A stretch of DNA of 64,000 nt, taken from the NCBI RefSeq assembly GCF_008271655.1, contig NZ_VKKX01000052.1, forward strand, positions 1 through 64,000, read 5' to 3'. Each line of letters opens with the position of its first letter. Positions within the stretch are counted from its first letter, which is position 1. This DNA is from Gemmobacter caeruleus (GTDB lineage Bacteria; Pseudomonadota; Alphaproteobacteria; Rhodobacterales; Rhodobacteraceae). Below the pieces are notes generated by a model. The model searched no databases and was not told the DNA's origin. It worked only from the letters and a program-made list of their open reading frames with translations. Below are positions 40,952-45,982 of the stretch, in pieces. Made by a program: the position numbers and the translations under genes.

Positions 40952-41359
40952 ATGAAAACCCTGACCATTTCCGCGCTGCTGGTGGCGGCTCTGACCGGCC
41001 TTGCGGCCTGCGATCGCGCGGCGGATGCCCCTGCCGACGCGCCTGCGGCGACCGACTGGCATCTGATCGGCGGCAGCCTGCGGCCACTGCCAGCGCCGGC
41101 GACGCTGCGCCTTGAGGGCGGCGGTCAGGTTGGCGGGCAGGGGCCCTGCAACCGCTGGTTCGCGCAACGTGAGGGACAGGGCCGCGCGTTCCGCCTGCCG
41201 CAGATCGGCGCCACCGAAATGGCCTGTCCCGCCCTGCCGCAAGAGGCCGCCTATTTCGCAGCACTTTCCGGTGTGACCGCGATCGAACAGCGGGACGACC
41301 GGCTGATCCTGACCGGGCCTGGCGGCATCGTGCTGGAATTTGCGGCAGAGACCCGCTGA
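40952..41359 (+). CDS. META-domain (HslJ-like) lipoprotein
   Basis: The 135-residue protein begins MKTLTISALLVAALTGLAAC, a lipoprotein signal with lipobox LAAC. The mature part has DWHLIGGSLRPL, GPCNRWFAQREG and the ATEMACPALPQEAAYFAAL motif, which together mark the META domain (HslJ-type). Members are linked to novobiocin resistance in E. coli, but the mechanism is unclear. The ATG at 40952 follows CGGAGGCGAAG. It acts in the periplasm, attached to a membrane. Confidence 0.85.
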   Translation: MKTLTISALLVAALTGLAACDRAADAPADAPAATDWHLIGGSLRPLPAPATLRLEGGGQVGGQGPCNRWFAQREGQGRAFRLPQIGATEMACPALPQEAAYFAALSGVTAIEQRDDRLILTGPGGIVLEFAAETR

Positions 41360-41460
41360 TCGGCCCGGCGCCGGCCCCTTGCGACGCTTTGGCACTGGCA
41401 TGCAGGAAATGGAATGTTAGCATGGCCCCATGCCGTCATCCGGCCCAAGGGGGAATCGCC

Positions 41461-41778
41461 ATGCCAAAGCTTGTCAGGCTCTATATCGTCAATGTCGCCA
41501 TCGGCTATGTCCTCTCGGCGATCTTTGTCGCGGCTCTGGTCTGGCTGAATATCGGCGGGCTGGGCCATCTGGTGCTGGAAACCCGGCATGGCTGGATCGG
41601 CGGGCTGATGCTTTTCGTCTCGAACGGGGTGATCTTTGCCGGCGCGCAATTCGCCATCGCGGTGATGCGCCAGGCCGAGACCGAGGACCGGCCCGGCGGC
41701 GGCACCCGGGCGCCCGCCCTGACGCCGGCACCGGTGCGGGTGGCCGAAACCCGCCGCCCGGCGCAGTTGCGGCGCTGA
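41461..41778 (+). CDS. Small membrane protein with two transmembrane segments
   Basis: The 105-residue protein begins MPKLVRLYIVNVAIGYVLSA and has two hydrophobic stretches, about residues 8-30 and 45-67 (GLMLFVSNGVIFAGAQFAIA), then a basic and Pro-rich cytoplasmic-looking tail ending in RRPAQLRR. No function is recognised. It is followed by a strong terminator at 41798-41830 and is likely a single-gene unit. Confidence 0.75.
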   Translation: MPKLVRLYIVNVAIGYVLSAIFVAALVWLNIGGLGHLVLETRHGWIGGLMLFVSNGVIFAGAQFAIAVMRQAETEDRPGGGTRAPALTPAPVRVAETRRPAQLRR

Positions 41779-41797
41779 GGCGCGCGACTCAGGACGC

Positions 41798-41830
41798 AAA
41801 GCCCGGGGTGACCCGGGCTTTTTCGTTTTT
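41798..41830 (+). terminator. Strong rho-independent terminator
   Basis: AAAGCCCGGG (41798-41807) pairs with CCCGGGCTTT (41812-41821) around GTGA, followed by TTCGTTTTT. A textbook terminator 20 bases after the small membrane protein gene. Confidence 0.93.
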
Positions 41831-41933
41831 GGGCAATGTGTTGCCCGGCGCGCACGCGGTTTGCGTGACCTAGCGTAAGCCTGTGAAACGAAGGTGATTC
41901 TGGCTGTGAACCGCGGGTTCCGGTCGGGCAAAT

Positions 41934-41955
41934 CCGCGGCCTTCCGCGGGTTTTT
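41934..41955 (+). terminator. Second rho-independent-type hairpin before the DUF481 gene
   Basis: CCGCGG (41934-41939) pairs with CCGCGG (41944-41949) and is followed by GTTTTT; preceding A residues extend the stem. It is 109 bases before the next gene and could end a short transcript starting after the first terminator. Confidence 0.5.
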
Positions 41956-42063
41956 CGCCTGTGCAAACCGGTGGCTTGAATGGGGCCGGATCATGGTCAA
42001 GTCCTCGCCACAGCCCGGCGTCAGGACCGCCGGACGCATCCGCAACTGAAAGGATACGGGATC

Positions 42064-42894
42064 ATGAAACAGACCCTCCGCCTTGCCGGCGCCTCGACCC
42101 TCGTGCTGCTGCTGGCCGCCCCCGCCTTCGCCCAGGGCGAACTGGTGGGCACCAATGCGCTGGATGACCGCATCGACGACGTGACCGATGCGGTCAATGA
42201 CGATCTGGCCCGCGCCGAGGATGCCGCGCGCTTTGGCAACCCGGAATACCGCCAGGGCCTGTCGGGCTCGGCCTCGCTGGGCTATTCCGGCAAGACCGGC
42301 AACAATGAAAGCCAGGAATTCTCGGCCGGCGCGCGTCTGCGCTATGCCTCGGGCAACTGGGTGCAGAATGTCGGCATCGCGCTCGACTTTGCCGAGGACA
42401 ACAACGCGAAGACCAAGGAAGATGTGCTGGGCGTCTATGACGCCAACTATTACTTCAACGACAATTTCTACGCCTTTGCCCTGGGCCGCGTGGAAACCGA
42501 TGGCCTGGCCTCGACCGCGGCCGATACCCAGACCGACGCCTTCCTCGGCTTCGGCCCCGGCTACCGCGTGGTGAACACCCCCGACATGACCTGGCGTGTG
42601 CAGGCGGGTATCGGGGTGAGCTATCTCAAGGATGGCACCGGCGCCAGCGAGACGGAAACCGGCTACATCGCCTCGTCGCGGTTCTTCTACAAGTTCAACG
42701 ACAACGTCTTTGCCACCAATGACACCGATGTCCTCTATTCCGACACGGCGCTGCGGGTGAACAACGATCTGGGCGTGAACTTCAAGATGTCCGACGCCTT
42801 TGCGACCCGGGTCAGCTATCTGACCGAATATAACGAGGCGCGCGCGATCCGCACCGACAACAAGCTGGGCGTGTCGCTGGTCATGGGGTTCTGA
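42064..42894 (+). CDS. DUF481 outer-membrane beta-barrel protein
   Basis: The 276-residue protein has a signal peptide (MKQTLRLAGASTLVLLLAAP, cleavage after AFAQ), a short helical region and then many alternating beta strands such as GLSGSASLGYSGKTGNNESQ, ending with LGVSLVMGF; a C-terminal Phe is usual for outer-membrane barrels. DUF481 (YdiY-type, salt-induced) proteins have no firm function. The ATG at 42064 was chosen because the signal peptide begins there. It is followed by a strong terminator and a structured gap. Confidence 0.85.
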   Translation: MKQTLRLAGASTLVLLLAAPAFAQGELVGTNALDDRIDDVTDAVNDDLARAEDAARFGNPEYRQGLSGSASLGYSGKTGNNESQEFSAGARLRYASGNWVQNVGIALDFAEDNNAKTKEDVLGVYDANYYFNDNFYAFALGRVETDGLASTAADTQTDAFLGFGPGYRVVNTPDMTWRVQAGIGVSYLKDGTGASETETGYIASSRFFYKFNDNVFATNDTDVLYSDTALRVNNDLGVNFKMSDAFATRVSYLTEYNEARAIRTDNKLGVSLVMGF

Positions 42895-42928
42895 CCCCCG
42901 GCGATCCCCGACTTTTTCATCGCACTTC

Positions 42929-42954
42929 GGGGCAGGGAAACCTGCCCCCTTTTT
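42929..42954 (+). terminator. Rho-independent terminator after the DUF481 gene
   Basis: GGGGCAGG (42929-42936) pairs with CCTGCCCC (42941-42948) around a GAAA tetraloop, followed by CTTTTTC. Its right arm overlaps the palindrome at 42946-42968, so the two hairpins exclude each other. Confidence 0.85.
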
Positions 42955-42968
42955 CGTCGAAAAAGGGG
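42946..42968. repeat. Palindrome of the TTTTCG-W-CGAAAA family (copy 4)
   Basis: CCCCTTTTTCG (42946-42956), a central T and CGAAAAAGGGG (42958-42968) form perfect 11-base arms. It overlaps the DUF481 terminator and ends four bases before the structured region at 42972. Confidence 0.65.
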
Positions 42969-42971
42969 CAT

Positions 42972-43154
42972 GTGGCGGGCCCGCAGCAACCGTGGGCGAC
43001 GGTGTTTTCCCGAGAGCCAGAGGTCTCAGGTGGGAACCAGGTAGCAGGACCAGGATCCTGCCAGAGCCAGCCCCCGTTCGCTTGCTTATCGGCCACTGGA
43101 AAAGTGTCCCGCACGCGAGGAGCAGCACCCGCCACGCCCAGAGATAGGCGTGGC
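42972..43154 (+). ncRNA. Candidate structured non-coding RNA, possibly 6S RNA
   Basis: No protein is encoded in this 183-base stretch, yet it has ordered long-range pairing: GTGGCGGG (42972-42979) with CCCGCCAC (43128-43135), CGTG (42991-42994) with CACG (43112-43115), TTTTCC (43005-43010) with GGAAAA (43098-43103), and an apical GCAGGA/TCCTGC hairpin (43044-43061). A long rod closed by its two ends with a central bubble and about 165-180 bases in length is the 6S RNA plan. An alternative 8-base hairpin GCCACGCC/GGCGTGGC (43131-43154) competes with the closing stem. Strand and identity are inferred; no promoter is obvious. Confidence 0.4.
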
Positions 43155-43188
43155 GCGGCCTCGGGGCAAGGGGGCATCGCCGCCGCGG

Positions 43189-43869
43189 TCAGTCGGCGGT
43201 CTTGCGCACGCGGTTGGTGACCGACCAGGTGCAGGGCCCGGCATCGTTCACCGCCTGCATGTCCCAATCCATGCGAAAGCTGCGCGGCGTCAGCAGCACC
43301 ATGCGATAGCTGCTGGTCATGCCGGGCAGCCGGTCGGCCCCGGTCAGTTCCACCTCCGAGACACGGGTCCAGGTCGGGCGCGTCGCCTCCGGGTCGGGGT
43401 TGGCGGCCAGCCAGGCATCGCGCCAGCGGGCGCCGTCAAAGCGACCGCCCCAGGTCACCCGCACCGGCTTTTCGCGGTTCAGGTTGCCTTCGATCATCTG
43501 GCGCATCATCGCGGTGCCCGGCCCGCAGGACAGGGTGTTGAGCGTCGATTGCGTGGTCCAGACGCCGTCTTCGGGCACGAGGGGGCCGGCACAGCTGCCG
43601 TCGCCGCCGGCGGTGATGTCGATATCCTCTGCGCTCAGCGGCGACCAGATGCCGGTGCCATCCTGCACGACAAGGATCATCGCGGCGGCATTGGCGGGCG
43701 TGTCGATCCCCATCACGAGGCTCGCCTCCTCGGGCGAAAGCGGCGTCTCGGCGCAGGTGCAGCCCTGATGGGTGGTGCAATCGGCCACGGTCAGCGCGGC
43801 GGCGGGCAGGGCGGTCAGCACCGCAAAGGCGCAAAGCGGGGCCAGGGCGGCCCGGGTCAGGCAGGTCAT
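43189..43869 (-). CDS. Secreted hypothetical protein
   Basis: The 226-residue protein has a signal peptide (MTCLTRAALAPLCAFAVLTA, cleavage near AAAL). The mature part holds pairs of cysteines (TTHQGCTCAE, GDGSCAG, TLSCGPGT and GPCTWSV) that may form disulfides, and a C-terminal WDMQAVNDAGPCTWSVTNR. It is probably periplasmic. No family is recognised. The ATG at 43867-43869 has GGAGAG upstream and gives the signal peptide, so the earlier frame is not used. It is convergent with the structured region downstream. Confidence 0.7.
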   Translation of the reverse strand: MTCLTRAALAPLCAFAVLTALPAAALTVADCTTHQGCTCAETPLSPEEASLVMGIDTPANAAAMILVVQDGTGIWSPLSAEDIDITAGGDGSCAGPLVPEDGVWTTQSTLNTLSCGPGTAMMRQMIEGNLNREKPVRVTWGGRFDGARWRDAWLAANPDPEATRPTWTRVSEVELTGADRLPGMTSSYRMVLLTPRSFRMDWDMQAVNDAGPCTWSVTNRVRKTAD

Positions 43870-44775: not shown

Positions 44776-44852
44776 GTGCCGACTTAGCTCAGTAGGTTAG
44801 AGCACCAGATTGTGGATCTGGGGGTCCCCCGTTCGAGCCGGGGAGTCGGTAC
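44776..44852 (+). tRNA. tRNA-His (GTG anticodon)
   Basis: The acceptor stem TGCCGAC (44777-44783) pairs with GTCGGTA (44845-44851). An extra 5' G at 44776 faces C73 at 44852, the hallmark of tRNA-His. The anticodon arm CCAGA-TTGTGGA-TCTGG carries GTG, and the T arm has CCCCG-TTCGAGC-CGGGG. The CCA end is only partly encoded, so it is completed after transcription. A terminator follows at 44861. Confidence 0.96.
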
Positions 44853-44860
44853 CATCTTCC

Positions 44861-44950: not shown

Positions 44951-45982
44951 ATGAGGTGTGCGGTGGCGATGATTGCGAGTCATGCAGGGTTGCGGGGGCT
45001 GGCCGCCTCGGCGGTGGCCATCGGTCATTTCACCGAGATTTTCGCCCCGGGCTGGTTTCTGCCCCATACCCATATCGCGGTGGATTTCTTCTTTCTGCTC
45101 AGCGGGTTCATCCTGACCCATGTCTATGCCGCCGATTTCGCGGGCGGTCTGAGCCTGCGCAATTGCGGCTGTTTCCTGCTGCGGCGGCTGGCGCGGATCT
45201 ATCCGCTGCATCTGGCGACGCTGGTCGCGATTCTGGCGATCCTGCGGTTTCACCTGACACCGGAGGAGGCGGGCCAGCTGGGGCCGCAACTGGTGCTGGC
45301 CCATGCCTGGGGCCTGTCGGAGCGCTATGTGCTGAACGCGCCGAGCTGGTCGATCTCGGTGGAGTTCGGCGCCTATCTGGCCTTTCCGCTTCTGGTGCTG
45401 CTCCTGGGTCGGCGCGGCGGCTGGCTTGTGCTGGCGGGGCTGAGCCTGGCGGGGGTCGCGCTGCTCTGGCCGCTGGGGGCGGGCAGTCTCGATCTGCATG
45501 TGACCGGATCGCGCCATGTCTGGCTGCGCGGGCTGGTGGCCTTTCCGCTGGGCATGCTGCTGGCCGCACTGGCGGCGCGGCACCGTGCCGGTGCGGCGGC
45601 GGGCTGGTGGCAGGGTGGCGCGCTGGCGGCTTTCGTGGCGCTGATCGCGCTTTCCACCCCCGAGATGTGCTGGCTGGTGCCGATGGCGGTGATGGTCTGG
45701 GCCTGTGCCGGCGACCGCGGCCGGATCGCCCGCATCATGGCCAGCCGCCCGATGGTCTGGCTGGGTGAGGTGTCCTATGGCATCTACCTGATCCAGTGGG
45801 TCGTCATCCTGGCGCTTTACAATATCGTGCCGAAGCTGGGGTTCCTGCCGCCCGCCGCGCTGACCCTTGCGACGGGCGTGCTGTATTTCGGCGGGGTGCT
45901 GGGCCTCGCCGCCCTGTCGGCCCGCTGGTATGAGCCGACCTTTACCCGCCTGGCGCATCGCTGTCGTCTGGGGCGCGGCTAG
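44951..45982 (+). CDS. Acyltransferase 3 (OafA/YrhL-type) membrane protein
   Basis: The 343-residue inner-membrane protein has about ten hydrophobic helices, the N-terminal GLRGLAASAVAIGHF motif with the expected His, the VDFFFLLSGFILTHVY segment, and APSWSISVEFGAYLAF later. Such enzymes move acyl groups, often acetyl, onto surface sugars or exported metabolites. The ATG at 44951 was chosen; another at 44966 is possible. Substrate unknown. It stands alone between tRNA-His and tex. Confidence 0.85.
   Translation: MRCAVAMIASHAGLRGLAASAVAIGHFTEIFAPGWFLPHTHIAVDFFFLLSGFILTHVYAADFAGGLSLRNCGCFLLRRLARIYPLHLATLVAILAILRFHLTPEEAGQLGPQLVLAHAWGLSERYVLNAPSWSISVEFGAYLAFPLLVLLLGRRGGWLVLAGLSLAGVALLWPLGAGSLDLHVTGSRHVWLRGLVAFPLGMLLAALAARHRAGAAAGWWQGGALAAFVALIALSTPEMCWLVPMAVMVWACAGDRGRIARIMASRPMVWLGEVSYGIYLIQWVVILALYNIVPKLGFLPPAALTLATGVLYFGGVLGLAALSARWYEPTFTRLAHRCRLGRG

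Follow-up and report, generated by a model that had tools for sequence, protein, structure and literature searches.

The gap between two genes on contig NZ_VKKX01000052.1 of Gemmobacter caeruleus very probably contains a single-copy 6S RNA gene (ssrS), read from the minus strand at about 43135–42972, as judged from sequence comparison. All coordinates refer to the window, the whole 64,000-nucleotide stretch of DNA that was analysed. The preliminary description had proposed a possible 6S RNA and left the strand open; its reading was borne out by an Rfam match, covariance models, covariation in relatives, gene order and a conserved promoter suitably placed upstream, and the strand is the minus strand. 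The locus is an ordinary 6S RNA gene, a known kind of housekeeping RNA. The gap is bounded by the stop codon of a DUF481 gene, which ends at 42894, and by the end of a minus-strand gene at 43189. The mature RNA is predicted to be about 164 nt long, with its 5ʹ end near 43135 and its 3ʹ end near 42972. The locus is organised as follows:

42064..42894, plus strand: DUF481 protein gene (PF04338, E 1.1e-38), convergent with the 6S gene
42929..42954, plus strand: terminator-like site after the DUF481 gene (stem 42929–42948, then a T run)
42972..43135, minus strand: probable 6S RNA (ssrS) gene, placed by the full-length RF00013 match, models R2 and R3 and the closing stem
43189..43869, minus strand: gene for a protein of about 226 aa, between the 6S gene and an MmcB-like gene

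Rfam match and covariance models

When both strands of the 701 bases at 42700–43400 were searched with all Rfam models, RF00013 (6S) matched over its full length (1–187 of 187) at 43131–42974 on the minus strand, with a score of 36.3 bits and an E value of 1e-5. The two other matches in this interval were weak (E 0.95 and 9.5). Searched against the whole genome (3,989,799 bases), RF00013 gave a single match at E up to 10 (E 1.4e-5). Its score lies below the Rfam gathering cut-off of 46.4 bits, which is a curatorial threshold for automatic annotation and not a biological property. Because of this shortfall, a default Rfam scan of the 64-kb window was blank at the locus, missing the 6S gene and reporting only a tRNA, the tRNA-His at 44778–44854.

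Two further covariance models were built from sequences other than the G. caeruleus locus, although their source sequences had themselves been picked with RF00013. Model R2 comprised the 15 sequences above the Rfam cut-off in 41 genomes, and model R3 the 11 of these that came from other families at class level. At the G. caeruleus locus, R2 scored 96.2 bits (E 5.4e-18; next genome match E 7.4) and R3 scored 76.4 bits (E 2.7e-14; next genome match E 0.14). In our judgement, this membership result outweighs the missed curatorial cut-off.

The second R3 match (G000:C14:10242–10318, plus strand, 21.7 bits) is weak and probably due to chance. The same probably holds for a weak match of R1, a family model that includes the G. 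caeruleus sequence, at 45258–45350 on the minus strand (20.2 bits, E 0.004), which falls within a long open reading frame and was not among the matches listed for R3.

Fold of the RNA and covariation in relatives

Upon re-inspection of the sequence, the nested pairings of the preliminary description were present where it had placed them, and its apical hairpin was found inside 43044–43061. The parts of the fold are:

43128..43135, minus strand: closing stem, 5ʹ arm, pairs with 42972–42979
42972..42979, minus strand: closing stem, 3ʹ arm, pairs with 43128–43135
43112..43115, minus strand: CGUG, pairs with CACG at 42991–42994; 98.4% of cells paired (64 sequences)
43098..43103, minus strand: UUUUCC below the central bubble, pairs with GGAAAA at 43005–43010
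43076..43097, minus strand: 5ʹ side of the central bubble, contains GGCCGAUAA, aligned with the GCCGA region of the Rfam consensus
43032..43075, minus strand: apical stem-loop of the rod, two helices with 90.1% and 93.8% of cells paired
43017..43030, minus strand: small hairpin on the 3ʹ side of the bubble, CCUGAGACCUCUGG; 92.2% of cells paired (64 sequences)

Folding energy was not decisive as evidence for this structure. On the minus strand the z score was −1.94, with 8 of 200 shuffles folding as well, and on the plus strand it was −1.03, with 35 of 200. The unconstrained fold of the 164-nt minus-strand RNA (−77.3 kcal/mol) is not the rod and lacks the UUUUCC/GGAAAA helix; with the stems enforced, the energy was −72.3 kcal/mol.

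The structure was further assessed in two alignments that include the G. caeruleus sequence, A3 with 18 family sequences and A4 with 64, the latter leaving out copies found with R1 for which no locus had been fetched. Compensating changes, on which the preliminary description had proposed to test the structure, were frequent. In A4, 22 of 45 pairs had changed on both sides, against a mean of 11.4 in shuffles that retain the relatedness of the sequences (reached by 0 of 500). Standard pairs were formed by 90.2% of cells in A4, compared with 34.2–50.7% when the partner was slid by 1–3 columns, a control that removes this relatedness but whose structure was drawn from the G. caeruleus sequence. 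A3 gave both-side changes in 13 of 40 pairs, where shuffles gave 7.1 (reached by 0 of 500); of its cells, 90.1% paired, versus 40–55% when slid. Further pair types, one of five measures, did not rise above the shuffles in either alignment (149 of 500 in A4 and 76 of 500 in A3).

The closing stem consists of eight Watson–Crick pairs, of which the inner six were kept in 53–64 of the 64 sequences and the outermost two in 30 and 39, failing in 34 and 25. Both-side changes were found in four of the six pairs of the UUUUCC/GGAAAA helix, with U-A replaced by A-U at one of them in 18 of the 64 sequences; the outermost pair of this helix (43103/43005) failed in 33. In the apical stem-loop, 9 of 18 pairs had changed on both sides (64 sequences). 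One pair of the small hairpin had done so in 31 of 64 sequences, and one pair is mismatched in G. caeruleus and likewise in 24 of 64. Among the other pairs that often failed in A4 were 43072/43035 (49 of 64), 43126/42983 (36 of 64), and 43061/43044 and 43028/43019 (24 of 64 each). It is comparison, and not energy, that lifts the structure above chance, and the covariation argues for a 6S rod with a closing stem, a large central bubble and an apical stem, and for membership in the 6S family.

Promoter and the inverted repeat at 43131–43154

Three elements lie at or upstream of the predicted start:

43164..43169, minus strand: putative −35 element TTGCCC, with T, T, G and C at fixed offsets in 62, 61, 55 and 48 of 68 sequences
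43141..43146, minus strand: putative −10 element TATCTC, 17 bases after the −35 element
43131..43154, minus strand: inverted repeat, 10 of 10 pairs in G. caeruleus, overlapping the −10 element and the predicted start

A sigma-70-like promoter of the form TTGC-N17-TATnT is conserved upstream of the 6S RNA in 68 family sequences (G. caeruleus included, two duplicates removed). In the −10 element, T was found in 54, A in 56, the third-position T in 40 and the fifth-position T in 57. The element is followed by 5 bases and then by 43135, where the closing stem begins. The hexamers bear a weak resemblance to the textbook sigma-70 consensus, and a stock promoter scan did not detect a promoter. The best hexamer pair in the 60 upstream bases had a mean of 6.9 of 12, compared with 5.9 after shuffling; in 36 of the 68 sequences its offset and spacing were identical.

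Instead of 6S, either strand of the gap might encode another structured RNA or a cis-regulatory leader or switch, with competition between the hairpin at 43131–43154 and the closing stem, a competition that the preliminary description had noted as a possible switch. The repeat is indeed present and has bases in common with the closing stem, and Atu_C7 gives a weak overlapping match on the minus strand (13.7 bits, E 0.95; cut-off 45). However, since the conserved −10 element and the predicted start fall within the repeat, most of it lies outside the RNA. At the same register, only 1–7 of its 10 pairs were kept in an alignment of 64 relatives in which one genome appears twice; of 74 family rows, 9 that repeated the core of another had been left out of this count, and L076 was then removed before A4. 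When each arm was shifted by up to 2 bases, 8 or 9 of the 10 pairs formed in 16 of 64 relatives, a figure uncorrected for taking the most favourable of 25 registers in GC-rich sequence. The switch hairpin was rejected as unconserved in register. In addition, every other Rfam family stayed well short of its cut-off in 42700–43400, where the plus strand gave no match at E up to 10. The downstream DUF481 gene is convergent on the opposite strand, so there is no adjoining gene for a leader to control. Taken together, we consider a leader or switch very unlikely.

Within the 6S reading, the repeat could play a part if transcription entered from upstream. The gene at 43189–43869, seen in this reading as an insertion in the lineage, reads toward the 6S gene, with 53 bases from its stop codon to the predicted 6S start, and a terminator scan found no terminator between the two, so that read-through into the 6S gene is conceivable. 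Such read-through could give a longer precursor whose extra 5ʹ hairpin at 43131–43154 competes with the closing stem, delays maturation and ties the 6S supply to the upstream gene; we regard this as very improbable.

Distribution in relatives

At E up to 0.1, RF00013 matched 36 of 41 genomes (that of G. caeruleus and 40 relatives), with 15 above the cut-off; within the family, 23 of 25 genomes were matched and only 4 passed, indicating that low scores characterise the family and do not point to decay. One genome of the family that passes is G020 (50.6 bits), in which DUF481 and MmcB-like genes also stand beside the 6S gene. The curated cut-off thus leaves an annotation gap in most of these 25 family genomes, and the family-specific model R1 found 6S RNA in 144 of 149 family genomes at E up to 0.01 (9 of these genomes had supplied R1 sequences).

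These results bear on whether the locus could be a degenerate 6S relic that has lost its function. Its score under the gathering cut-off would fit such a relic, but the low score is family-wide. With R1, which includes the locus, it reached 183.3 bits, second among the family genomes searched, and its pairs and promoter are intact. We therefore judge a relic to be extremely unlikely. A coding gene has a negligible chance: open reading frames of 82 aa (plus strand), 116 aa (minus strand) and 625 aa (minus strand, 41251–43128) reach into or across the gap, but relatives differ there by one- and two-base lengths that would break a reading frame, sequence change follows the pairing, and the 625-aa frame also crosses the DUF481 gene in antisense.

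No significant 6S match was found in the family genomes G024, G059, G085, G095 and G140 with R1, nor in G004; for G024 (98% complete) and G004 (87%), none fell below E 8 even in a small-set search. These genomes possibly reflect loss or assembly gaps. Two genomes gave more than one match. In G008, a fragmented genome of the same genus, two 6S loci (L092 and L097) each had their own DUF481 and MmcB-like genes, with aligned pieces 76–85% alike, pointing either to mixing in the assembly or to duplication of a block. In G018, the two 6S matches had unlike flanks.

Gene order and neighbouring genes

Loci were compared after being fetched in three ways, with L063, L076, L081 and L082 left out of the counts (same genomes as other loci). 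Among 30 named loci retrieved through DUF481, the 6S gene lay just downstream of DUF481 on the opposite strand in 26, where this neighbourhood is expected from the way of fetching, and a divergent MmcB-like gene adjoined the 6S gene in 24 of these 26. The four loci without 6S were L033 (Gemmobacter caeni), L034 (G. lutimaris), L052 and L060. For L033, L034 and L052, 6S sits elsewhere in the genome, on a contig other than that with DUF481, and the genome of L060 gave no 6S match at E up to 1. In 18 family loci fetched by RF00013 (G. caeruleus and the truncated locus L022 included), DUF481 was downstream in 5 and MmcB upstream within about 1.5 kb in 15. Another 30 loci fetched with R1, including the G. 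caeruleus genome and three others fetched before, had DUF481 in 6 (two at 384 and 914 bases), MmcB in 21 (in the other orientation in L090) and none of these neighbours in 9. Neither gene stood beside 6S in any of 13 loci of other families. DUF481 is thus a less regular neighbour of 6S than the MmcB-like gene.

For DUF481 proteins, the name salt-induced outer membrane proteins is also in use. Searching with the DUF481 gene gave a Gemmobacter metagenome-assembled genome as the nearest named relative (86% identity). The terminator-like site behind the gene would be expected to keep DUF481 transcripts out of the 6S gene. On the other side, the protein of 43189–43869 has a signal-peptide-like start, judged by eye, and matched nothing in Pfam or NCBIfam at E up to 0.001; a relative of its gene was found only in L031 among the compared loci (the same as L100, Gemmobacter caeni genome, 61% identity). 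Beyond the MmcB-like gene and a DUF6324 gene lies a tRNA-His with the anticodon GTG (44778–44854, plus strand).

Bubble motif and proposed function

6S RNA, a well-known small RNA, sequesters RNA polymerase as growth slows down. By analogy with the family, the G. caeruleus RNA would mimic an open promoter, bind the housekeeping sigma-70 RNA polymerase holoenzyme and restrain the polymerase during slow growth. Its release would come with the synthesis of a short product RNA by the polymerase, for which the bubble serves as template. Across 65 family sequences (one genome counted twice), the bubble motif read GGCCGAUAA in 37, GGCCUUAAG in 19, GGCCUAUAA in 8 and GGCCUUAAA in 1. The product RNA is predicted to start opposite a U near 43088, which we take to be the template start by comparison with U44 in E. 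coli and from the Rfam alignment, and would run 5ʹ-AUCGGCCACUGG.

Comparison with known 6S RNAs

A literature search on 6S RNA with Gemmobacter found nothing, and among the papers listed for alphaproteobacterial 6S covariance and secondary structure, for Paracoccus 6S and for DUF481 with salt, none concerned the G. caeruleus 6S gene. The original study of the 6S RNA of Rhodobacter (Cereibacter) sphaeroides is reportedly that of Elkina et al. 2017. PMC8998176 cites this study for slower growth under high salt, and PMC3616915 mentions 6S RNA as already identified in Sinorhizobium meliloti.

According to PMC8414754, a membrane-protein gene lies immediately downstream of the R. sphaeroides 6S gene on the opposite strand. 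The G. caeruleus locus resembles this arrangement in its convergent downstream neighbour, which is DUF481 here and a membrane-protein gene in R. sphaeroides. G. caeruleus has a further gene, at 43189–43869 on the minus strand, between 6S and the MmcB-like gene.

Compared with the RF00013 family, the G. caeruleus RNA differs in its score under the curated cut-off, as in most of its own family, and in the small hairpin on the 3ʹ side of its bubble. It agrees with RF00013 in its length, full-length match, closing stem, central bubble with CCGAU, apical stem and single match in the genome, and the gap is thus resolved as a standard housekeeping RNA.
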